A stretch of 64,000 nucleotides of DNA from Actinomycetota bacterium (GTDB taxonomy: Bacteria; Actinomycetota; Aquicultoria; Aquicultorales; Aquicultoraceae), in contig JAGXSZ010000030.1 of assembly GCA_018333515.1 (NCBI GenBank), forward strand, positions 126,501 to 190,500, written 5' to 3'. The translations under genes and the position numbers were made by a program. The notes below the pieces were generated by a model. That model had not been told where the DNA came from. It was given only the letters and a program-made list of their open reading frames with translations, and did not search any database. Shown here piece by piece: positions 3,211-61,373 of the stretch. The first letter of the stretch is position 1, and each line of letters starts with the position of its first letter.

Positions 3211-3534
3211 ATGGAAACGGCAACAAAGCCTATAAGAATAGATATATTTAACGACGGCAACTCATGCGGTTTTGGCTGAGGCTCGCACGGCCTATCTCAG
3301 GCTGAGATAAACTGGATGATAGTCGACCCGCTCAAGGCCAATTACGGGGACGCGGTTGCGATTAACTATTTCGACATAAACGAAGAGAGTTTGCCTCCCG
3401 ACATCAAGAGGCTTATAGAAGAGCATAATCTGCCCGTTCCGTTGACCTTTATCAACGGCGAGAGCGTAAGCGCGGGGTATATCTCATATTATGATTTGAC
3501 CCGAAGGATAGATAGTCTGTTCAAAACCGAATAG
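3211..3534 (+). CDS. Thioredoxin-fold selenoprotein (in-frame UGA, Sec23)
   Basis: Read with UGA at 3277-3279 as selenocysteine, this is a 107-residue protein starting at an ATG with a GGAGGA ribosome site 9 bp after the preceding gene. The N-terminus IDIFNDGNSC is a typical thioredoxin-fold first strand leading into the redox motif CGFGUGSHG. The remainder (VDPLKANYGDAVAINYFDI, LPVPLTFINGESVSAGYIS) keeps the same frame and includes the cis-Pro strand of the fold. It resembles the ArsD/thioredoxin-like group by pattern only. A perfect 7-bp hairpin (TATCTCA-GGC-TGAGATA) starts 14 nt after the UGA, where a bacterial SECIS lies. Standard gene calling would truncate it to 3316-3534. Confidence 0.75.
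3280..3312 (+). promoter_or_regulatory. Putative bacterial SECIS hairpin
   Basis: The hairpin TATCTCA-GGC-TGAGATA at 3293-3309 is a perfect 7-bp stem with a G-containing 3-nt loop. It begins 14 nt downstream of the in-frame UGA, within the coding sequence, where SelB-binding SECIS elements of bacteria are found. Recognition by SelB is inferred. Confidence 0.55.
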
Positions 3535-35935: not shown

Positions 35936-36175
35936 ATGCCGGCGAATATCAAAGTGTACTCTACCCCGACCTGAGCGTATTGTTCGTTGCTCAAGAAGTT
36001 TCTCGAGGAAAAGAAGGTCGAATTCGAGGAAATCGACCTGGCGGCTGAACCTGACAGAGTAGGCGAGCTGGTGGAGGTTTCGGGCCAACTTGGGGTGCCG
36101 GTCACCGTAATCGACGGGCAGGCCATCGTCGGCTACGACCGGGCCAGGCTCGAAGCGGCTATCGCCGGGCTGTAA
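35936..36175 (+). CDS. Selenocysteine glutaredoxin-like protein (UxxC, Sec13)
   Basis: Reading the UGA at 35972-35974 as Sec gives a 79-residue glutaredoxin/NrdH-like protein. The redox motif PTUAYC replaces the CPYC of ordinary members, with Sec in the nucleophile position. The rest (KKFLEEKKVEFEEIDLAAEP, GVPVTVIDGQAIVGYD) keeps the fold and the cis-Pro (VPVT). A GGAGG site precedes the ATG. It lies 16 bp before a thioredoxin-reductase-like gene, so the two probably form a redox pair. Standard calling gives only 35987-36175. Confidence 0.85.
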
Positions 36176-47626: not shown

Positions 47627-47764
47627 GAGCGACGCTCTCTCTCTTTGCTTAAACATACGATGGTGTGCCGAAGCCAACAGTACCCGCTAGCCCTGCCAAC
47701 TGGGGCGCGATATTATTTGCGCATGCCGATGCGCTATGGTAAACTGTCGCCAAATCATATACGT

Positions 47765-47990
47765 CCCAGGTGACGTGCGACCGACATAAAGAATGGTCAG
47801 CGTAGAATAGGGAAGCTGGTGAAAGTCCAGCGCGAGCCCGTCACTGTAATCGGGGAGCGAACCATAGAGTGCCACCGGCAAGAGCGGGGTGAAATCCGCA
47901 AAGGCCGGGAAGGCGTGGCAAGCGAAGATCCGGAAGCCAGGAGACCTGCCTGGGACATGCAAGGGAGACCACTTCCGAGGCCGGAGTGGG
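47765..47990 (+). promoter_or_regulatory. Cobalamin (B12) riboswitch
   Basis: The conserved pieces are in order: an early stem near 47768, GGGAAGCTGGTGAAAGTCC, CACTGTAATCGGGGAGC, GCCACCGGC, a GCGGGGTGAA stretch, and the B12 box GCCAGGAGACCTGCC near 47937-47951. It precedes cbiM and the cobalt uptake genes, the expected target. Confidence 0.92.
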
Positions 47991-50854: not shown

Positions 50855-50999
50855 GCTTAGTAAGACCGTTTCGCGCGCGCCTTAACCGCCCGACTGCAAG
50901 TAAAACAATTGATAAATTATCATCGAATACTGGAAACGGCGGCCACAATGCGGTAATTTATATAGAAAGACATGGTAATCCGGGATGGGAGGGAATCTT

Positions 51000-51416
51000 T
51001 TGAGGCTAGACAAGGTGAAGTTTCAAAAATCGACAGGTACTTTAGTTTTCCTACTATTGATTGCACTGGCCGCTTTTATGCTCGCGGGATGTTCGGACGG
51101 GGGCGGCGCCGAGAAAAAAGAGGGCGCGGTTACGGAAAGCGAGGGGGAAGCACAGACTGAAGGCGAAGCGGTGGAGTTGGAGCCCGAAGAGGTCAAGGAC
51201 CCGGAACTGTTGTATGTAAACAACTGCGGCGCTTGCCATGGGCATGATGGAAACGGTGTGGTCGGGCCGGCTATTCGTGGAACGTCAAAATCCGGCGAAG
51301 AAGTAGAGAAAATCATCAACGACGGTAAAGGCTCGATGCCTAAGTTTAAGGACGGCGAGTTGACCGAAGAGCAAATCAAGATAATCGCGAACCATGTCAA
51401 AACCGAATTCAAATAG
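51000..51416 (+). CDS. Monohaem cytochrome c lipoprotein
   Basis: About 138 residues. A signal with lipobox MLAGC (Cys about 30) is followed by an acidic linker (EKKEGAVTESEGEAQ) and a small cytochrome c domain with CGACH and the Met ligand in GSMPKF. It is an electron carrier on the outer face of the membrane. The TTG at 51000 has GGGAGGGA 6 bp before it; the ATG at 50985 would overlap that site. Terminated by a perfect 11-bp hairpin. Confidence 0.88.
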   Translation: MRLDKVKFQKSTGTLVFLLLIALAAFMLAGCSDGGGAEKKEGAVTESEGEAQTEGEAVELEPEEVKDPELLYVNNCGACHGHDGNGVVGPAIRGTSKSGEEVEKIINDGKGSMPKFKDGELTEEQIKIIANHVKTEFK

Positions 51417-51615: not shown

Positions 51616-51645
51616 TTGACATTTATACCCCCCTAGGGTATAAAT
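51616..51645 (+). promoter_or_regulatory. Thioredoxin promoter with overlapping CsoR/CstR-type operator
   Basis: TTGACA (51616) and TATAAA (51639) are spaced by 17 bp, a near-perfect sigma-70-type promoter. Between and over the -10 lies a perfect inverted repeat, ATTTATACCC-CCCTA-GGGTATAAAT (51621-51645). The GGG/CCC palindrome is the CsoR/CstR type, and repressor binding there would block the polymerase. Confidence 0.75.
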
Positions 51646-51667
51646 GATAGGAAAGGAGTGGTGTGTA

Positions 51668-51979
51668 ATGCCTAGCAATATAACCGATGCGCAGTTTGAC
51701 GCGGAAGTGTTGAAATCAGATGTTCCTGTGATAGTCGATTTTTGGGCTCCTTGGTGCGGTCCGTGCAAGATTATCGCTCCGAGGTTGGAAGAGCTTGCGA
51801 AAGAGTACGACGGCAAGGTTAAGGTTCTTAAGCTTAACGTCGATGAAGAGCGTGAATGGGCCGGCAAGTTCGGCGTTATGAGCATCCCGACGCTGATGCT
51901 CTTTAAAGAGGGTCAGGCCGCCGGTCAAATCGTCGGGGCTGTGTCGAAGGAAGAAATCGTGCGCCGGTTTGGGCTATAG
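51668..51979 (+). CDS. Thioredoxin
   Basis: A 103-residue thioredoxin with the active site FWAPWCGPC and the cis-Pro in SIPTLMLFK. It reduces protein disulfides in the cytoplasm. ATG 51668 has AAAGGAG before it; an upstream in-frame ATG at 51644 lies inside the promoter -10 region and is rejected. Transcription starts from the operator-overlapped promoter just upstream, so it is probably induced by persulfide, metal or related stress. Confidence 0.93.
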
Positions 51980-52079: not shown

Positions 52080-52298
52080 ATGCCAACTTATCAATTTGTC
52101 TGCAACGATTGCGCCGGCGACTATGAGATATTCTTAATGAGAATGCTGCGTGACGCGGATAGAGTCTGTCCGAGCTGCGGCAGCACAAACGTACGCCAAG
52201 CGTACCGGGATTTTTTCGGCTATACCGCGTCGAGAAGTAGCGGCGGCGGCGCGGCGGGACACTCCGGCGGCGGTTGCGGAACCGGCGGTTTTCGCTGA
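52080..52298 (+). CDS. FmdB-family zinc-ribbon protein
   Basis: A 72-residue protein with the FmdB start MPTYQFVCNDCAGDYEIF and a second pair CPSCGS, giving a four-Cys zinc ribbon, then a Gly/Ser/His-rich tail (GGGAAGHSGGGCGTGG). Family members are putative regulators; the exact role is not known. Single gene between thioredoxin genes. Confidence 0.85.
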   Translation: MPTYQFVCNDCAGDYEIFLMRMLRDADRVCPSCGSTNVRQAYRDFFGYTASRSSGGGAAGHSGGGCGTGGFR

Positions 52299-52425: not shown

Positions 52426-52564
52426 TGTTGATGCGAATAGCGCATATAAACTAATACGCGCTTCTAGAATTATATTTATCGCGGTGTCGTGGTATACTAT
52501 GGGGGTCTATGCCACCACTCGATACAAATAACAAACTTTCCGTCGCGGTTGGGAGGAGAACACG

Positions 52565-52996
52565 TTGTTTGATAGAAATAGCACAATTAAAGTTTTGGTA
52601 ATCGCTATTCTCGTAGGAGTTTTAGCGCTATCCGTAATCGGGTGCGAGCGAAGTCAAACCCAGGGAACAAGCGGCACGACGAACCAGGGCCAAAGCGCTC
52701 AGCCGGTAGCAAGCGGTACGCCAAAGGTCATGTTCTTCTCGGCGGACTACTGACCCGCCTGCAGGGAGATAAAGCCGCTCGTGGAGCAGGTTAAGAAGGA
52801 ATATGCGGGTAAGATAAGATTCGAGACCTATGATTTGGATAATCCGGATCATATAGCGGTCGCCAACCAGTTCGGAGTTCGGTCGATACCGACACTGATA
52901 TTCATAAACAAAGACGGAGCCACCGTCAGTACGTTAATCGGGGCGCAGCCGAAAGAACTCATAGTGGAGAACGTCGAGAGAACTCTTAAGAAGTAG
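52565..52996 (+). CDS. Thioredoxin-like lipoprotein with selenocysteine (UPAC, Sec63)
   Basis: Reading the UGA at 52751-52753 as Sec joins two halves of a 143-residue protein. The N-terminal signal has a lipobox (SVIGC, Cys about 28), then a linker. MFFSADYUPACREIKPLVEQ is a thioredoxin active site with Sec in place of the first Cys of CPAC, and FGVRSIPTLIFINKDG supplies the cis-Pro. TTG start with GGGAGGAG. A GCTC-GTG-GAGC hairpin lies 21-37 nt after the UGA. It would work as a membrane-tethered extracytoplasmic thiol/selenol reductase. Adjacent to the CstR-like repressor. Confidence 0.85.
52775..52790 (+). promoter_or_regulatory. Putative bacterial SECIS hairpin
   Basis: CC-GCTC-GTG-GAGC-a-GG, starting 21 nt after the in-frame UGA. 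The stem is short (4 bp plus 2 bp across a bulge) with G in the apical loop. Position fits a bacterial SECIS; recognition is inferred. Confidence 0.45.
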
Positions 52997-53013: not shown

Positions 53014-53298
53014 ATGTACGATCGCGAGGAAGAGGCCAAACGGATAGTCACGAGGCTCAAGAGGCTTGAGGGTCAACTAAGAGGCCTCCAGCGGTTGGTT
53101 GAGATGGGCGAGGACTGCGAGAGCGTCCTGACCCAGTTCGCTGCCGCAAAAGGCGCTTTCCAGCGCGTAGGCGAGATTATTTTGGCGAGCGTCATTCGTG
53201 ATTGTATCGCAAAAGAAAGCTCCGCTGATAAAGGACCCGAGGAGAGTGTCGAATCGGCGCTCGCTTTGTTTGAGCAGTACGTAAGACATCTTCAGTAA
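53014..53298 (+). CDS. CsoR/CstR-family (DUF156) repressor, CstR-like
   Basis: A 94-residue all-helical repressor (RLKRLEGQLRGLQRLVEMGEDC start). The copper site of CsoR is Cys-His-Cys; here Cys35 and Cys64 are present, but the residue four before Cys64, where CsoR has His, is Val60. Loss of that His is the mark of persulfide-sensing CstR rather than copper-sensing CsoR. It is 17 bp after the selenothioredoxin gene, so both are probably one operon. Likely regulator of the palindromes at 2618 and 51621 (inference). Confidence 0.82.
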   Translation: MYDREEEAKRIVTRLKRLEGQLRGLQRLVEMGEDCESVLTQFAAAKGAFQRVGEIILASVIRDCIAKESSADKGPEESVESALALFEQYVRHLQ

Positions 53299-53852: not shown

Positions 53853-54299
53853 TTATGGCATGTCTTCGGCAGGTTTTTCGCCGATTATGTGTAGCAGATC
53901 AGCCGTTCGCATTATGCTTATTCTCTGGTATTCCTTTAATTCAAGTAGGTGCCGGTCGCCGGAGATTATAAGGTCCGCATTCGCTACAAGAGCGCATTCC
54001 AAAATTCTGTTATCAGATTCGTGGGAGATTGCTGTTATTCTGGTCGTCCCCTTCACATATTCCCTGATAGCCGCTCGCATTATCTTCACAGCATCGTTTA
54101 CGTTTTCTTCTGACCAATCAAACTTGTCGCGCATAATTCTTGCGACTTCATTAATTATTTCGGGAGAGCAAATAAGGTGGATTTTACGAAGCCTTGCCAA
54201 CTCAAAACAGCTTCTTGCTGCACCAAGCCCCTTTTTCTTGCGTCCAAGGAAAGCGGCGATAAAAACGTTGGCATCAAAGACAACTCGCAGCCTATTCAT
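53853..54299 (-). CDS. PIN-domain toxin (COG1569-type)
   Basis: A 148-residue PIN RNase. Asp in VVFDANVFIAAFLG, Glu in SPEIINEVARIM and acidic residues in SDNRILECALVANADLIISGDRHLL form the metal site. It cuts RNA when not bound by its antitoxin. The start overlaps the end of the antitoxin gene, so the two are co-translated. Part of the tRNA-Val island. Confidence 0.85.
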   Translation of the reverse strand: MNRLRVVFDANVFIAAFLGRKKKGLGAARSCFELARLRKIHLICSPEIINEVARIMRDKFDWSEENVNDAVKIMRAAIREYVKGTTRITAISHESDNRILECALVANADLIISGDRHLLELKEYQRISIMRTADLLHIIGEKPAEDMP

Positions 54300-54531
54300 G
54301 TATTATCCTGTCGATGTCATCCTCGCTAATAATATTAAAGTTTTTAGCTGTTCTTTCGCCCAGTCGCTGGATTGTTTGCCATCTCACCTCGTTCAAATAA
54401 TCCTCATACACTTTAACCATCTCTCGAAACAGCTCACTCTTAGTCTTCCGTCGATCGCGGGCAAGGTCTTCATATTCCTCATAGGTTTCAGGTGGTACAG
54501 AAAATGTAAGTGTTTTACTTATACGGCCCAT
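54292..54531 (-). CDS. RHH antitoxin of the PIN pair
   Basis: A 79-residue ribbon-helix-helix protein (MGRISKTLTFSVPPETYEE, KTKSELFREMVKVYEDYL). ATG 54531 has GGAGG before it; a longer frame to 54600 is rejected. It should bind its own promoter and neutralise the PIN toxin. Confidence 0.85.
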   Translation of the reverse strand: MGRISKTLTFSVPPETYEEYEDLARDRRKTKSELFREMVKVYEDYLNEVRWQTIQRLGERTAKNFNIISEDDIDRIIHE

Positions 54532-54721
54532 AATAATGCCTCCTCTGTAAGACAGATCATTATCCATAATAATATACTTTATTGCCCAACGCTTCAACAC
54601 GGGTTTTACCTAATTTGCATGGCATTTAAGATTCTCGATTCGGGGATCGCTATCATAAATTAAGCAGCAGAGCCTGTTCAGCGACAATTAAAATTACCCA
54701 TAGGAAGAAATAATTGATGCC

Positions 54722-55131: not shown

Positions 55132-56613
55132 TTGACAACATACAACCAAAATCCCGAACAGAAAGCCCGAGACAATATCGATGAGCTGTTAGGGCAGGCA
55201 GGGTGGGCGGTTCAGCGCAACACGAAGATCGACCTCAATGTCGGCTTGGGTCAGGCCGTGCGCGAATATCAAACCGATGTCGGCCCGGCGGACTATGTGC
55301 TATTCGTGGATAAAAAAGCGGTTGGTGTGATCGAGGCCAAGCGTGAAGAAGAGGGGCAGCGACTTACCGTCCATGAAACACAAACGGAAGGCTATGCCGG
55401 CGCCAAGCTGAAGTGGGTTAACAACAAAGAGCCGTTGCCGTTCCTCTACGAGAGCACCGGCATTCTTACTCGCTTCACCGATGCCCGCGATCCCAAACCG
55501 CGTTCGCGCGAGGTTTTCAGCTTTCACCGCCCCGAAACACTTAAGGAATGGCTCGCGCAAGGCGACAGCCTGCGCGAACGCTTGCAGCATGTACCAATAC
55601 TCAACCCGAACTACCTACCCGCAAAGGAATTGCGCCTGCGCGATTGTCAGGAAGTCGCCATCAACAATCTCGAAACCTCTTTCAAGGCAGACCGCCCGCG
55701 CGCCCTAATACAAATGGCGACCGGAGCCGGCAAAACTTACACCGCGATCACTTCAATTTATCGCCTGCTCAAGCATGCTCAAGCCAAGCGCGTTCAAATC
55801 GAACGCGCGCAACACTACCAACAACAACTCACCGACTGGGAAGCCTCCGGCAAACAAGGCCGCAAACCCAAAACCCCAAAAACCCTACCACCTCTGACCG
55901 CTGAAGAATTAGCCGAATTGCCCAACCTGCCGGAAGGGTGGGGGTGGTTCTTGATGGGTGACGTTTGTCTAGAATCGATTCTTGGAAAAATGCTGGATAG
56001 GGAGAAAAACAAAGGCGAACTAAAGCCATATCTGAGAAACATTAATGTACGTTGGGGGGAATTCGACCTTGATGACTTGCTTGAAATGCGATTTGAAGAG
56101 TCTGAGTATGTTCGATACGGTTTGCAAGACGGTGACTTGGTTATCTGTGAAGGCGGGGAACCCGGTCGTTGTGCGGTGTGGCGGAAAGCGCTTGGTCAGG
56201 ATATGCAATTTCAAAAAGCATTGCACCGTGTACGTTTTACTAATGCCATAAATTCATTTTTCGTGCAACTGTATTTTGAGCGTTGCGCATCAAATCGCAG
56301 GCTTGAGAAAATGTTTACTGGAACCACCATCAAGCATTTGACAGGCGAGAAGCTGGCAAGAATGTCCATTCCCATGTGCTCAATTGATGAACAGGCTGAG
56401 ATTGTGCTAGCACTTGAATCAAAGTTTTCTGAGCTCGACCAGCTCGACCAAACCATCACTACATCCCTACAACAAGCCGAAGCTCTGCGCCAATCTATCC
56501 TGAAAAAAGCCTTCTCCGGCCAACTGGTGCCGCAGGACTCGCGCGACGAACCCGCCTCGGCTTTGCTGGCACGCATCAAGGCGGAAAAAAGTGGCGCCGT
56601 TGAAGCACGGTAA
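55132..56613 (+). CDS. Chimeric type I restriction protein: HsdR N-terminus fused to HsdS C-terminus
   Basis: A 493-residue open frame. Residues 1 to about 222 are an HsdR start: endonuclease core (GPADYVLFVDKKAVGVIEAKRE) and Walker A (ALIQMATGAGKTYTA). It then switches, within AKRVQIERAQHYQQQL, to an HsdS sequence: linker, one target-recognition domain (PEGWGWFLMGDVC to HLTGEKLARMSIP) and the C-terminal coiled coil (QQAEALRQSILKKAFSGQLV). The helicase motor and the first TRD are missing. A GCGCGTTC/GAACGCGC palindrome (55788-55808) marks the join. TTG start. Restriction activity is unlikely; the S half might still guide HsdM (inference). Confidence 0.85.
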   Translation: MTTYNQNPEQKARDNIDELLGQAGWAVQRNTKIDLNVGLGQAVREYQTDVGPADYVLFVDKKAVGVIEAKREEEGQRLTVHETQTEGYAGAKLKWVNNKEPLPFLYESTGILTRFTDARDPKPRSREVFSFHRPETLKEWLAQGDSLRERLQHVPILNPNYLPAKELRLRDCQEVAINNLETSFKADRPRALIQMATGAGKTYTAITSIYRLLKHAQAKRVQIERAQHYQQQLTDWEASGKQGRKPKTPKTLPPLTAEELAELPNLPEGWGWFLMGDVCLESILGKMLDREKNKGELKPYLRNINVRWGEFDLDDLLEMRFEESEYVRYGLQDGDLVICEGGEPGRCAVWRKALGQDMQFQKALHRVRFTNAINSFFVQLYFERCASNRRLEKMFTGTTIKHLTGEKLARMSIPMCSIDEQAEIVLALESKFSELDQLDQTITTSLQQAEALRQSILKKAFSGQLVPQDSRDEPASALLARIKAEKSGAVEAR

Positions 56614-56745
56614 AATCGGACGAGCAGTGTCGTGGAAGCGGGTGTAAATTCGGCTTTATCGGTAGCTCAAAAGATATGTGGGTGCTAATATGGGCATAAT
56701 AGCTAAAACACCAATACCATAAAAAGCAGATTACGTAGAAGGAAG

Positions 56746-57663
56746 ATGCGAGTGGAAAAAGTATCGGTTTGTGCGCCTGCGTCCGATATTGGTCCCGTGT
56801 ATGCCCGGTTTTTTTCCTCTGGGGTGCTCAGGGAGCTGGCACATAAAGGCCATTCGACTATAGCGGCCCGGTTGGCGAGGCAATGTCATCTCTTTGACCA
56901 GTTTGGATCAGAAATGGCAGTGGGGGATTTCTATGACGCCATTTTCAAACGGTTGACCCGCGATTACCGTCACGAATATATCTATAAAAATGCTATTGCT
57001 GAAAAAATCCTGCTAGGCAAGCACAATCTAAACACTGCTTTCATGTTAATGGAGTTTCGTGCCGACGATTGCATAGCCGATGCGGTTGTACTGAATGGAA
57101 CTTCCCATGTTTATGAAATCAAATCGGAGATGGACAGCTTTGACCGGCTCGACCGCCAGCTTGCCGCGTATCAAAAGATGTTTGATTTCATAACAATCAT
57201 CACTACTGAACGGCTCTACAAAGTGGTCAATGAGCGGATTCCGAAGGAAGTGGGTATCATGGTGCTTGCCGATGGCAGGTATCAATTCAGGCGGAACACA
57301 TGTCGCCGAGAGGCAATCAGCAATAAATACAATGTCGACCCGATTGTTATTTTCAACTCATTGCAAAGGCGGGAATACCTAAGGATTATCAAAAAAGAGT
57401 TGGGGGCATCGTTGACACATTATCCCAATACCCAGATTTACGGTGAGGCAAAGAAATATTTCGAGCAACTAACGCCTGAGTTAGCCCATGATGCTATGGT
57501 TGAGACACTTAAGAACCGCAGTGATACATTGCGGGTGGCTGACTTTGTTGACGTTGTTCCCAGCAGTCTAAAAGCAGCCGCGTTATCAATGCGACTGACA
57601 AGAGAAGAGCGCAACAGATTCATAGGTCTACTGCACAAAGGCATTGCATCGGTATTTGCATAG
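56746..57663 (+). CDS. sce7726-family PD-(D/E)XK nuclease-like protein
   Basis: A 305-residue protein. The central region shows a PD-(D/E)XK core: Glu103, Asp112 in IADAVVLNG, Glu124-x-Lys126 in HVYEIKSEMDS, then a helix with Gln138 and Tyr142 (RQLAAYQKMFDFITIIT). The N-terminal 80 and C-terminal 120 residues are helical. The layout matches sce7726-type proteins, named for their usual partner sce7725. First of three tightly packed genes between the chimeric hsdRS and hsdM. Confidence 0.7.
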   Translation: MRVEKVSVCAPASDIGPVYARFFSSGVLRELAHKGHSTIAARLARQCHLFDQFGSEMAVGDFYDAIFKRLTRDYRHEYIYKNAIAEKILLGKHNLNTAFMLMEFRADDCIADAVVLNGTSHVYEIKSEMDSFDRLDRQLAAYQKMFDFITIITTERLYKVVNERIPKEVGIMVLADGRYQFRRNTCRREAISNKYNVDPIVIFNSLQRREYLRIIKKELGASLTHYPNTQIYGEAKKYFEQLTPELAHDAMVETLKNRSDTLRVADFVDVVPSSLKAAALSMRLTREERNRFIGLLHKGIASVFA

Positions 57664-57686
57664 CCCCACCAGGAACAGGAGAGCGC

Positions 57687-58637
57687 ATGTACTATCCATT
57701 TATTCGTGGTAAACAATTTGAGCTTGTTATGCTTCGTGAAATGGCGCCCAGGATTGCGGAATGGGGCTTTGTGCCGATTATTGAACCGGTAAAGGGAAAT
57801 TTCCCCGCACTGAAGAAAGCGCTTGACCAGCTTATTGAACAGAATTGCCGTTTTATTATTATTACGAATCCGAGTGTTGGAGAATTGACCGCAGATAGTT
57901 CTGCGTTACGTACCGAAATCTTTGATGAACATCTTTGTGATTACAATAACTTTTCAATCGGCTTTAATCTGTCCGCAACAGATACAAACGACACAGCGAA
58001 AAGACTCTTTGAGATGCATGATAGAAACATCGCTATTATCCATAACGGTTTTTCTGATGGTAAAGCGCTATCCGAACTGATCGAAGAAAAAAATCCAACA
58101 ATAACTGAGCATGTGTTTGTCGAACAACAGAGTTCAACAATGCTCTACCGCAAGCACTTTAAGGGTATGAAAAGAATTATCGTAAAAGACGGATTCGAAA
58201 GTCGCATCAATCGAGAATATCCGCCCTCAGAACCGTTTTCTGAGCTTTATCTAACCTTTGAAGACATGGGATGCGATGGTTTTGGTGACTTCTTAATAGT
58301 CGGAAGTGATTTCAGAGAGGGTGGTGGTCCAGCCTACGCCATCGCGATTCATCTAACTTATGCAGATTCGGATGCAGACGATGCTATAGCAATCAAGCAT
58401 TATATATCCGATCAAACTGATACCCCTAAAGATCCGGCTGGAAAATTTCTCGAAGCGCTCAGAAAACTTGTTGATGATGTGCGGGGCGTTAATTCGCCAG
58501 TTTTCAGATCAACAGCCATAGAGGCGTATATGCAGCTTTACAGTGATCAGCATTTTCCAGGTTTAGGATATGTGAAAAAGCTCTCTATGCAGCACCATAT
58601 CGAATTGATGGCGCATCTCTTATTTTCGGAGGCATAA
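57687..58637 (+). CDS. sce7725/Beta-family protein
   Basis: A 316-residue protein resembling the Beta-protein family (PF14350) from phage T4 relatives and the sce7725 group. The start YYPFIRGKQFELVMLREMAP is characteristic, followed by VPIIEPVKGNFPALKKALDQL and a TIM-barrel-like pattern of strands (FIIITNPSVGEL, NIAIIHNGFSD, FVEQQSS). AGGA site before the ATG and 23 bp from the nuclease gene; 2 bp from the RES gene. Biochemical role unknown. Confidence 0.65.
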   Translation: MYYPFIRGKQFELVMLREMAPRIAEWGFVPIIEPVKGNFPALKKALDQLIEQNCRFIIITNPSVGELTADSSALRTEIFDEHLCDYNNFSIGFNLSATDTNDTAKRLFEMHDRNIAIIHNGFSDGKALSELIEEKNPTITEHVFVEQQSSTMLYRKHFKGMKRIIVKDGFESRINREYPPSEPFSELYLTFEDMGCDGFGDFLIVGSDFREGGGPAYAIAIHLTYADSDADDAIAIKHYISDQTDTPKDPAGKFLEALRKLVDDVRGVNSPVFRSTAIEAYMQLYSDQHFPGLGYVKKLSMQHHIELMAHLLFSEA

Positions 58638-58639
58638 AC

Positions 58640-59671
58640 ATGTATTGCTGCGCCACTTGTTTCGGGGACTCATTCCTTGATAAACGCATTCCTGAAATCT
58701 CAAAACAGATCGGAAAGTGCGGCTTTTGCTATGCTATCAATGTAGTATTGATTGAGCCAACAGCGCTACTCGACTACTTCCAGTCGGTAAGTTCGATTTA
58801 TGCCGAATGCTTTGAATCTGATGCGAAACCTCTGATTGAATGGTTTAAGGACGATTGGCAAATATTCTCTTCACTTGATCAGATCAACGCGAAAGCTTTA
58901 TTGGGCGAAATACTTGATGACGGCGAGATCGTGCGCAAGGAATTTGTTGTTCGGGATGTTCCGGTATTGGGTGCTGTTGAGAAATGGGCGACTTTTCGCG
59001 ATGAGATTATGAGGAAAAATCGGTTTTTCTTTCAGCACGACCTAGATCTTGATAGTTTAAAAGAGTTGTTTGACACATATCTGGAGACAGATGCTTCTGA
59101 ATTCGGCGGCTTGCTTTATAGGGCCAGAATTCAACTAGATAATTCAGGCATACCGCTAGATGAGATGGGCTGTCCCTCTGCGGAACATGCCAAGAACGGT
59201 AGAGCCAATCCGGTGGGAATTCCATATCTATATGTTGCAACGACACCAGAAACTGCAATTGCTGAAACACGTCCCCATCCGGGCGACCAGTTGTCAGTTG
59301 CGCAATTCGAAGTGACGACTGCCCTTCGTCTTCTGAACCTGATGAATCCGCGAAAAACAATCTCTCCTTTTTCTGTAGTTAGCGAGGACGAGTTGCGAGC
59401 ACTAAGATATGATCTAGAGTTTTTATGTCACCTCGAAAACGAGCTTTCAAAACCCGTTCTCCCTCGCGTCGCCGATTTAGAGTATCTTCCGACTCAATAT
59501 TTATGCGAATTTATAAAGAACTGCGGTTATGATGGCGTTGTTTATAAAAGTTCAATCAGTAACGGTGCTAACGTCGCACTTTTCGATGATTCAAAGGTAC
59601 AGGCTGAGGAATTGACCCAGTATGAAGTAACGAAATTAATATATGAGCAGGAACAGAGGCAAGCATTATGA
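58640..59671 (+). CDS. Zinc-finger RES-domain protein (NAD-targeting toxin-like)
   Basis: A 343-residue protein. Residues 1-30 contain Cys4-x2-Cys7 and Cys27-x2-Cys30, a likely zinc finger. A helical HEPN/RES-type N-terminal region (about 35-150) is followed by a RES domain: Arg163 in GLLYRARIQ, Tyr198 in PYLYVATTPE, Glu209 in TAIAETRP and Ser residues in VVYKSSISNGANVALFD. RES toxins such as MbcT break down NAD+. No Xre-type antitoxin is adjacent, unlike usual RES pairs; instead it follows sce7726 and sce7725. Confidence 0.75.
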   Translation: MYCCATCFGDSFLDKRIPEISKQIGKCGFCYAINVVLIEPTALLDYFQSVSSIYAECFESDAKPLIEWFKDDWQIFSSLDQINAKALLGEILDDGEIVRKEFVVRDVPVLGAVEKWATFRDEIMRKNRFFFQHDLDLDSLKELFDTYLETDASEFGGLLYRARIQLDNSGIPLDEMGCPSAEHAKNGRANPVGIPYLYVATTPETAIAETRPHPGDQLSVAQFEVTTALRLLNLMNPRKTISPFSVVSEDELRALRYDLEFLCHLENELSKPVLPRVADLEYLPTQYLCEFIKNCGYDGVVYKSSISNGANVALFDDSKVQAEELTQYEVTKLIYEQEQRQAL

Positions 59672-59895
59672 GTAATAATACAGCATCTATAGTTTCCAAG
59701 ATGGGGAGTTTCTGCACCACGTTGCGCGACAACGGCGGGGAGAAAAGCATGATGCTGATTGAGTATGTGCAAAATTTGCACATTGCTAATGTGTTCGCCG
59801 AGGGTCGGCTCAGCCAGTTTGGTGCAAAATGCACATTACGAATCAATCCAACTACTAAGGATTTCTTAGTGGTTCAGCAAGAAGGTAAAGCATGA
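59668..59895 (+). pseudogene. Partial duplicate of the hsdM 5' end
   Basis: A 75-codon frame. Its first 23 codons (TASIVSK, FCTTLRDN) copy the start of the hsdM gene directly downstream. From codon 24 (GGEKSMMLIEYVQNLHIA) it diverges into unrelated sequence and stops in the hsdM ribosome region. Probably a recombination scar; expression as a small protein cannot be excluded because the frame is open and overlaps the RES gene stop. Confidence 0.65.
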
Positions 59896-61373
59896 ACGCA
59901 ACCGCATCTATCGTTTCAAAAGTCTGGAGTTTCTGCACCACGTTGCGCGACGACGGCGTGAGCTATGGCGATTATCTGGAGCAACTAACATACCTCATCT
60001 TTCTGAAAATGGCGGACGAATATAGCCAACCGCCTTATAACCGCAAAGTGGATATACCCGCTGAATACAATTGGCAAAGTCTTAAGCCTAAGCGTGGCGC
60101 GGAGCTGGAGGTGCACTACGTGACGCTCTTGCGCGAACTGGGCAACAAGCCGGGGATGCTGGGGCAGATTTTCACCAAGGCGCAAAACAAGATTCAAGAC
60201 CCGGCCAAGCTGTATCGCTTGATTGATATGGTCAACGAAACTCAGTGGGTGACGATGGGCGCCGATATCAAGGGCGACATCTACGAAGGCTTGCTCGAAA
60301 GAAATGCGGAAGACACCAAGTCCGGTGCCGGTCAATACTTCACCCCACGCGCGCTGATTAAGGCGATGGTGGAGTGCGTGCGTCCGGAGCCGAACAAGAC
60401 CATTGCCGATCCGGCCTGCGGCACGGGCGGATTCTTTTTGGCAGCTTACGATTTTCTGGTGGCGCCGCAGCAGCTGGACAAGGACCAGAAAGCGTTTCTT
60501 AAGCACGAAACCTTTAACGGCAATGAAATCGTCGCGGGAACGCGCCGACTGTGCTTGATGAATATGTTTTTGCACAACATCGGCGAGATTGACGGCGAGA
60601 GCATGGTATCGCCCAACGACGCACTGGTGGCCGACAGCGGCAAGCGCTTCGACTATGTGTTGGCGAATCCGCCTTTCGGCAAGAAAAGCGCGATGAGCTT
60701 TACCAACGAGGAAGGCGAACAGGAAAAAGACGACCTGACTTACAACCGACAGGATTTCTGGGCTACCACGTCTAATAAACAACTCAACTTCGTGCAGCAC
60801 ATCCGCACCATGCTAAAAACCACCGGCCGCGCTGCCGTAGTCGTGCCTGATAATGTTCTGTTCGAAGGCGGCGCAGGAGAGACGGTGCGTAAGAAGCTGC
60901 TCGAAACCACCGAGCTGCACACCATACTGCGCCTGCCCACCGGCGTCTTTTACGCCAATGGTGTCAAGGCCAACGTGCTGTTCTTCGATAACCGCGCGGC
61001 CGGCAAGGAGTCGTGGACAAAAGAAGTCTGGTACTACGACTACCGCACCAACGTTCACCACACCCTAAAAAAGAAACCGCTGCGCTATGAAGATTTGCAG
61101 GAATTCATCGCCTGCTACAACCCCCTCAATCGCCATGAGCGCAACCCACTGTGGAACGAGAAAGACAACCCGGAAGGGCGCTGGCGCAAATTCACCTACG
61201 AACAAATCATCGCCCGCGACAAAACCAGCCTAGATATCTTCTGGCTCAAAGACAAGAGTCTAGCCGACCTAGACAACCTACCCGAACCCGACGAACTCGC
61301 GTTAGAAATAATCGAAAACCTCGAGGCCGGACTAAACAGCTTCAGGGAAATTATTGGCGCAATTGAATCGTAG
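59892..61373 (+). CDS. hsdM: Type I DNA methyltransferase HsdM
   Basis: A 493-residue N6-adenine methyltransferase. N-terminal HsdM helical domain (DYLEQLTYLIFLKMADEY), SAM site ADPACGTGGFFLAAYDF, catalytic motif NPPFGKK and the C-terminal FAEGRW-like KDNPEGRWRKF region are all present. Full length, no damage seen. It could pair with the single-TRD HsdS part of the upstream chimera. Last gene before the right att copy. Confidence 0.93.
   Translation: MNATASIVSKVWSFCTTLRDDGVSYGDYLEQLTYLIFLKMADEYSQPPYNRKVDIPAEYNWQSLKPKRGAELEVHYVTLLRELGNKPGMLGQIFTKAQNKIQDPAKLYRLIDMVNETQWVTMGADIKGDIYEGLLERNAEDTKSGAGQYFTPRALIKAMVECVRPEPNKTIADPACGTGGFFLAAYDFLVAPQQLDKDQKAFLKHETFNGNEIVAGTRRLCLMNMFLHNIGEIDGESMVSPNDALVADSGKRFDYVLANPPFGKKSAMSFTNEEGEQEKDDLTYNRQDFWATTSNKQLNFVQHIRTMLKTTGRAAVVVPDNVLFEGGAGETVRKKLLETTELHTILRLPTGVFYANGVKANVLFFDNRAAGKESWTKEVWYYDYRTNVHHTLKKKPLRYEDLQEFIACYNPLNRHERNPLWNEKDNPEGRWRKFTYEQIIARDKTSLDIFWLKDKSLADLDNLPEPDELALEIIENLEAGLNSFREIIGAIES

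Follow-up and report, generated by a model that had tools for sequence, protein, structure and literature searches.

The 64,000-nucleotide stretch of DNA analysed here (the window) carries a gene for a thioredoxin in which the first residue of the active-site UxxC motif is specified by an in-frame TGA and predicted to be selenocysteine (Sec). The product is almost certainly a genuine selenoprotein, as judged from the computed gene, UGA conservation, selection, hairpin, Sec machinery, and gene linkage. Features of its sequence suggest that this Sec-thioredoxin is tethered to the outside of the cell membrane of an uncultured actinobacterium. In the reading that we favour, with a probability of roughly 0.6, the tethered Sec-thioredoxin acts as a CcdA-fed reductase and is linked to a CstR-like repressor that probably responds to sulfur stress, an unusual genetic context for such a protein. 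An ordinary annotation would end the gene at the TGA.

The Sec-thioredoxin begins with a short basic segment, followed by a hydrophobic stretch that extends to VIGC, a linker rich in Ser, Gln, and Gly, and the thioredoxin domain (Table 1). The N-terminal part reads MFDRNSTIKVLVIAILVGVLALSVIGC, and the n-region, the h-region, and the lipobox Cys (Cys27 of VIGC) could all be recognized by eye. The active site has the context FFSADY-UPAC and is complemented by the cis-proline of SIPTL. Direct reading of the letters places the TAG stop codon at 52994–52996. The Pfam family PF00085 matches the product on both sides of the TGA with an E-value of 1.7e-15 and 57.3 bits, relative to a cut-off of 23.5 bits, which bears out the proposal of the initial annotation that UGA (52751) replaces the first active-site Cys of a thioredoxin fold. 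The cut-off of the TrxA equivalog model TIGR01068 was missed (63.6 of 96.8 bits). An AlphaFold model based on eight family sequences contains 91 residues with a pLDDT of at least 90 over the thioredoxin domain, and the anchor, modelled as a helix of residues 4–22, and the linker have low confidence. The top PDB matches are thioredoxins (2ynx, E-value 3.7e-10).

Table 1. Positions of the Sec-thioredoxin gene, its elements, and its neighbours in the window.
Feature	Position	Strand	Remarks
Lipobox-bearing c-type cytochrome, conserved neighbour	50985..51416	+	One CxxCH
Cytosolic thioredoxin, conserved neighbour	51644..51979	+	CGPC; possible electron source
FmdB-family zinc ribbon, conserved upstream neighbour	52080..52298	+	
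Inverted repeat GTGGTATA-N11-TATGCCAC over TATACT -10-like box	52489..52515	+	Genus only; candidate operator or promoter; weak
Shine-Dalgarno-like GGGAGGAGA ahead of TTG 52565	52551..52559	+	Consensus only
Sec-thioredoxin gene	52565..52996	+	TTG start, TGA=Sec 52751, TAG stop, 143 residues
N-terminal hydrophobic anchor and lipobox VIGC (Cys27)	52565..52645	+	Read by eye
Thioredoxin domain	52715..52993	+	UPAC active site, cis-Pro of SIPTL
In-frame TGA read as Sec	52751..52753	+	First residue of UxxC
Bacterial SECIS-like stem-loop	52773..52792	+	Stem 52773-52780 / 52784-52792, bulged A 52788, apical GUG 52781-52783
CsoR-family (PF02583) CstR-like repressor	53014..53298	+	94 aa; two Cys, no His at CsoR ligand position

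An open frame alone is weak evidence for Sec, because 18 of the 146 TGA-ended ORFs of at least 60 codons in the window also run on for at least 80 further open codons. Such a background would also suit the alternative that no selenoprotein is made, with the TGA acting as a real stop signal or having arisen in a Cys gene through codon decay or missequencing. Homologues were sought in 99 genomes, including the organism's own, and the matches listed are not exhaustive. Within this set, a gene with one in-frame TGA is present in two of the three other members of the genus and in all seven other members of the family; the genus member without the gene (G001) is 77% complete and is also without SelA. 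Loci with named records belong to Candidatus Aquicultor and to other metagenome-assembled genomes of Actinomycetota. Thirty TGA-bearing homologues were read, and in 28 of them the TGA encodes the first residue of UxxC; the other two, L050 and L088, have it elsewhere and were set aside before counting together with L077, for which the local search gave no match. The counts leave out the TGA match G028:C38:8-265, and loci L063–L066 were compared by tblastn only. Cys homologues exist beside the Sec forms, and 28 Sec and 12 Cys rows were compared. Over the 79 codons past the TGA, dN/dS is 0.122, 0.139, and 0.093 in three within-genus pairs, and the frame beyond the TGA is under purifying selection. 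The reading of the TGA as Sec exceeds chance because of the thioredoxin homology on both sides, the same codon in related genomes, the dN/dS values, and a hairpin that follows the codon.

The stem of this hairpin consists of eight pairs and is located 20–39 nt downstream of the TGA, in agreement with the distance and apical-G rules of bacterial SECIS elements. A hairpin at 52775–52790, put forward in the initial annotation as a SelB target, is present, but it is the inner part of this slightly longer stem-loop. A 27-nt segment of each gene, at a fixed distance from the TGA, was compared with the gene's own synonymous recodings. The mean hairpin z of the first 16 TGA homologues is -2.08, versus -0.18 (sd 1.11) for 547 other segments of the same genes. 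For all 28 Sec genes the mean is -2.28, with z below -1 in 25; the remaining three include L038 and L039, which are at about zero. At the same place in 18 Cys homologues the mean is +0.25, and only one has z below -1 (Mann-Whitney p 4.9e-7 for Sec versus Cys, with no kinship correction). Distant members fold alike with different letters, as in AGCCGCUCGUGGAGCAGGUU here, AGCCCAUCGUCGAUGGGCU in L037, and AGCUCCUGGUCCAGGAGCU in L052. The stem-loop is thus favoured beyond the needs of the protein in the TGA genes and not in the Cys homologues, as expected of a bacterial SECIS. The invariance of the apical GUN is not independent evidence for a SECIS, since it doubles as a conserved Val codon. Because the bulged A is not shared by all sequences, RNAalifold returned no more than three pairs from an ungapped alignment, each of them with double changes.

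The genome (2.33 Mb, 40 contigs, listed as 100% complete) contains the window on contig C30, and the components for Sec incorporation are clustered within about 5 kb of contig C23: selB (380.8 bits), selA (622 bits), selD (357.7 bits, with its own in-frame TGA), and a tRNA-Sec (76.4 bits) with the anticodon tca according to ARAGORN, i.e. UCA. A lack of Sec machinery in the genome is thereby excluded. SelD is itself a predicted selenoprotein (SGUAAK; L023, about 10498, reverse strand). SelA scored above the cut-off in 23 of the 25 genomes that hold a gene with TGA at UxxC, versus 17 of the 27 other genomes examined. It was not found in the TGA-bearing genomes G009 (97% complete) and G066 (91%), for which we can offer only assembly gaps as an explanation. 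The complete machinery, together with the conserved TGA, purifying selection past it, and the SECIS-like hairpin, supports the claim of a selenothioredoxin. Since 28 homologues share the TGA, selection acts on the codons beyond it, the hairpin goes with it, and the Sec machinery is complete, we also regard termination at the TGA, codon decay, and missequencing as extremely improbable.

The proposal that the protein is tethered to the membrane is strengthened by the N-terminal anchor and lipobox, the Cys of which is kept in nine of the ten family members read; G009 has Phe instead (VVGF). In G011, a more distant member of the same order, the lipobox Cys is replaced by Met (VIGM), and the N-termini of G009 and G011 have a hydrophobic anchor only. 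The lipobox Cys is mostly present in the Sec homologues of other families, and the forms adjacent to CcdA have an anchor without the Cys. Thus, the predicted membrane tether is conserved, but lipidation is not a feature of all members.

CcdA is encoded once in the genome, at C31:74379-75026, upstream of multihaem cytochromes and on a different contig from the Sec-thioredoxin gene. The presence of CcdA is uninformative because it is too common, occurring in 35 of 36 relatives. The Sec-thioredoxin gene is directly followed by CcdA in G066 and G052, and eight Cys homologues adjoin CcdA in seven other genomes. The Sec form of G016 precedes a gene that reads as TrxB-like, and G019 and G031 each have a pair of Sec lipoprotein forms on either side of a multihaem c-type cytochrome, as recognized by sequence reading (L078 1428-3445, L079 1056-3192). 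Since CcdA, a thioredoxin reductase, or multihaem cytochromes are encoded next to related tethered forms, we infer that the Sec-thioredoxin is an extracytoplasmic disulfide reductase fed by CcdA. A tree of 40 rows splits the tethered proteins from the cytosolic thioredoxins (100/96); most deeper forks are unresolved, and the distribution of Sec and Cys needs at least three changes. The Cys and Sec thioredoxins adjacent to CcdA, from the same phylum, resemble the protein described here in being membrane-anchored and extracytoplasmic, and presumably have a role of the ResA/CcsX/TlpA type; however, they form a separate branch (85/87), and the gene in the window is not beside CcdA. The Sec-thioredoxin that adjoins CcdA in two genomes of another family has the active site UPTC (L082 353-1401, L083 1011-2059), and a second family copy in G005 has a TPR-like region fused to a Sec-thioredoxin (UPSC; L084 736-1461).

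An extracytoplasmic location and a thioredoxin fold would also suit an oxidase or isomerase in disulfide formation, similar to DsbA or DsbC. We regard such a function of the selenoprotein as very unlikely, because its fold and sequence match reducing thioredoxins, its relatives adjoin CcdA or a thioredoxin-reductase-like gene, and a search of the genome for VKOR, the one such partner looked for, found none. Cytochrome c maturation system II is not supported, since the one ResB match in the genome is below the cut-off (19.5 of 24.6 bits).

The gene order thioredoxin, fmdB, Sec-thioredoxin is found in all ten family genomes, and the Sec-thioredoxin is followed by the CsoR-family gene in all nine in which the contig reaches that far (the contig of G010 ends). 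The distance from the Sec-thioredoxin stop to the repressor ATG is 17–36 nt across the family and 17 nt in the window, as the initial annotation had given it. The CsoR-family neighbour is 84–100% identical across the family, and the Sec-thioredoxin drops to about 40%. All nine neighbours have two Cys, at positions 35 and 64, and Val (eight) or Thr (one) where CsoR, InrS, and FrmR have His; at the sequence level, the designation as a CstR-like repressor holds. The nearest solved chains are 7mq3 and 7mq1, which we take to be CstR of S. pneumoniae. Like CstR, a CsoR-like persulfide sensor, the neighbour has the DUF156/PF02583 domain, two Cys, and no His at the CsoR position; it differs in adjoining a selenothioredoxin and not recognized rhodanese, SQR, or sulfite-exporter genes. 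The FrmR model NF008464 was missed (54.1 of 133 bits). The second CsoR-family protein of the genome (C31:67815-68066) has the His, in HIKGC, and adjoins an ATPase that reads as CopA-like; regulators of the copper type and of the CstR type are thus encoded separately. The CstR-like neighbour may sense persulfides. Upstream of the Sec-thioredoxin, all three genus members have an inverted repeat around GGGGG (two) or CGGG (one). A shared CsoR-type operator, a pseudo-palindrome with a G run, was considered at this place and rejected, as it is absent in the seven other family genomes.

The same selenoprotein could instead serve mainly to reduce per- or polysulfides, or selenium species, at the cell surface; together with the CstR-like repressor, its dedicated sensor, it would then form a sulfur-stress module. 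In nine of nine genomes the Sec-thioredoxin gene is linked to a CsoR-family gene with two Cys and no His, which fits this possibility, as does the finding of the repressor's close orthologue (at least 84% identity) only beside the Sec-thioredoxin, in nine of nine places. The CstR-like TTHA1953 of Thermus thermophilus provides a precedent, as the accessible text of its report describes it as repressing the thioredoxin SoxW and c-type cytochromes (PMC10318464). However, no CsoR-family repressor was found next to Sec-thioredoxins outside the Aquicultor family in the flanks searched, and thus the core function does not need the repressor. Moreover, the recognized neighbours of the repressor are the cytochrome c, thioredoxin, fmdB, Sec-thioredoxin, and tRNAs, and no rhodanese, SQR, persulfide dioxygenase, sulfite exporter, or other sulfur-oxidation gene was recognized beside it. 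We consider this alternative somewhat unlikely. A more elaborate proposal is a selenium–sulfur circuit at the surface, in which a CstR-like persulfide sensor would control an anchored selenothioredoxin that clears external reactive sulfur or selenium, enzyme and sensor being co-inherited throughout the Aquicultor family; we regard it as speculative and unlikely. The repressor shares with TTHA1953 its CstR-like character; the control of a thioredoxin and c-type cytochromes is a property of TTHA1953, which differs in having a regulon far from the regulator gene and in belonging to a Sox system, and Sec is not mentioned in the accessible part of that report.

In the favoured reading of a CcdA-fed reductase, the UGA would be decoded as Sec by SelB with the downstream stem-loop, and Sec would be the residue of UxxC that makes the attack. 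After export, a lipid or the N-terminal anchor would keep the thioredoxin at the outer surface of the cytoplasmic membrane. Cytosolic thioredoxin would most likely supply the electrons, with the membrane protein CcdA passing them on, and the Sec-thioredoxin would use them to reduce external disulfides or sulfur-bound thiols, such as those of apocytochromes c. Cytochrome maturation or the reduction of surface disulfides or persulfides is the task that we favour. The Sec-thioredoxin and the repressor are probably co-transcribed, and modification of the repressor's two cysteines by reactive sulfur probably lifts the repression. We give about even odds to the parts of this reading that go beyond the computed evidence: actual Sec insertion, export, electron donation by CcdA, the substrate, and the target and signal of the repressor.

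The initial annotation had counted three thioredoxin-like selenoproteins in 64 kb and read this as a high density. The Sec-thioredoxin and a selenoglutaredoxin (35936-36164, forward strand; MPANIKVYSTPT-U-AYC, TGA 35972; PF00462, E-value 2.2e-15) have the corresponding domains, but the candidate at 3211-3534 (forward strand; CGFG-U-GSHG, TGA 3277) matches no family in Pfam or NCBIfam. With a thioredoxin-like domain demonstrated for two of the three UGA genes, the earlier interpretation is weakest in its argument from density. The same UGA scan of 60 kb elsewhere in the genome gave only SelD as credible by eye, and no conclusion on density is drawn because that stretch was partly chosen around Sec genes and CcdA. 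A codon-usage scan for UGA genes missed even the Sec-thioredoxin gene. The window also contains a cobalamin riboswitch (47751-47967, forward strand, 107.3 bits) ahead of a CbiM-like cobalt transporter gene set. ORF reading identified an apparent pair of a PIN-domain toxin and a small antitoxin by the tRNA cluster (53853-54600, reverse strand) and Type I restriction-modification-like genes, with specificity-like and methyltransferase-like ORFs and other ORFs between (55132-61373, forward strand).

UxxC thioredoxins (PF00085) and glutaredoxins are listed among the verified prokaryotic selenoprotein families in the accessible text of two reports (PMC13188914, PMC9312934), the first of which gives the bacterial UxxC thioredoxin as experimentally verified; the other, predicted thioredoxin-like selenoproteins named there include a TlpA-family disulfide reductase and a thiol:disulfide interchange protein. 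The protein described here shares PF00085 and Sec as the first residue of UxxC with the verified selenoprotein, and differs from it in the lipobox or anchor at its N-terminus and in the CsoR-family gene that accompanies it. A search that reached few subscription journals returned no literature joining a selenoprotein with CstR or with Aquicultor, and a combination of selenoprotein, CcdA, and thioredoxin returned off-topic matches only. The tie of a tethered Sec-thioredoxin to a CstR-like gene looks new, whereas UxxC thioredoxin selenoproteins are already known.

The gene adds a well-supported outer-face Sec-thioredoxin to a little-studied, uncultured actinobacterial lineage. Because this tethered thioredoxin exists in both Sec and Cys versions, some of them beside CcdA, it offers a natural set for studying the benefit of Sec for thiol chemistry outside the cytoplasm. 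Its constant pairing with a two-Cys CsoR-family gene suggests that expression of the selenoprotein may be tied to the sensing of reactive sulfur.
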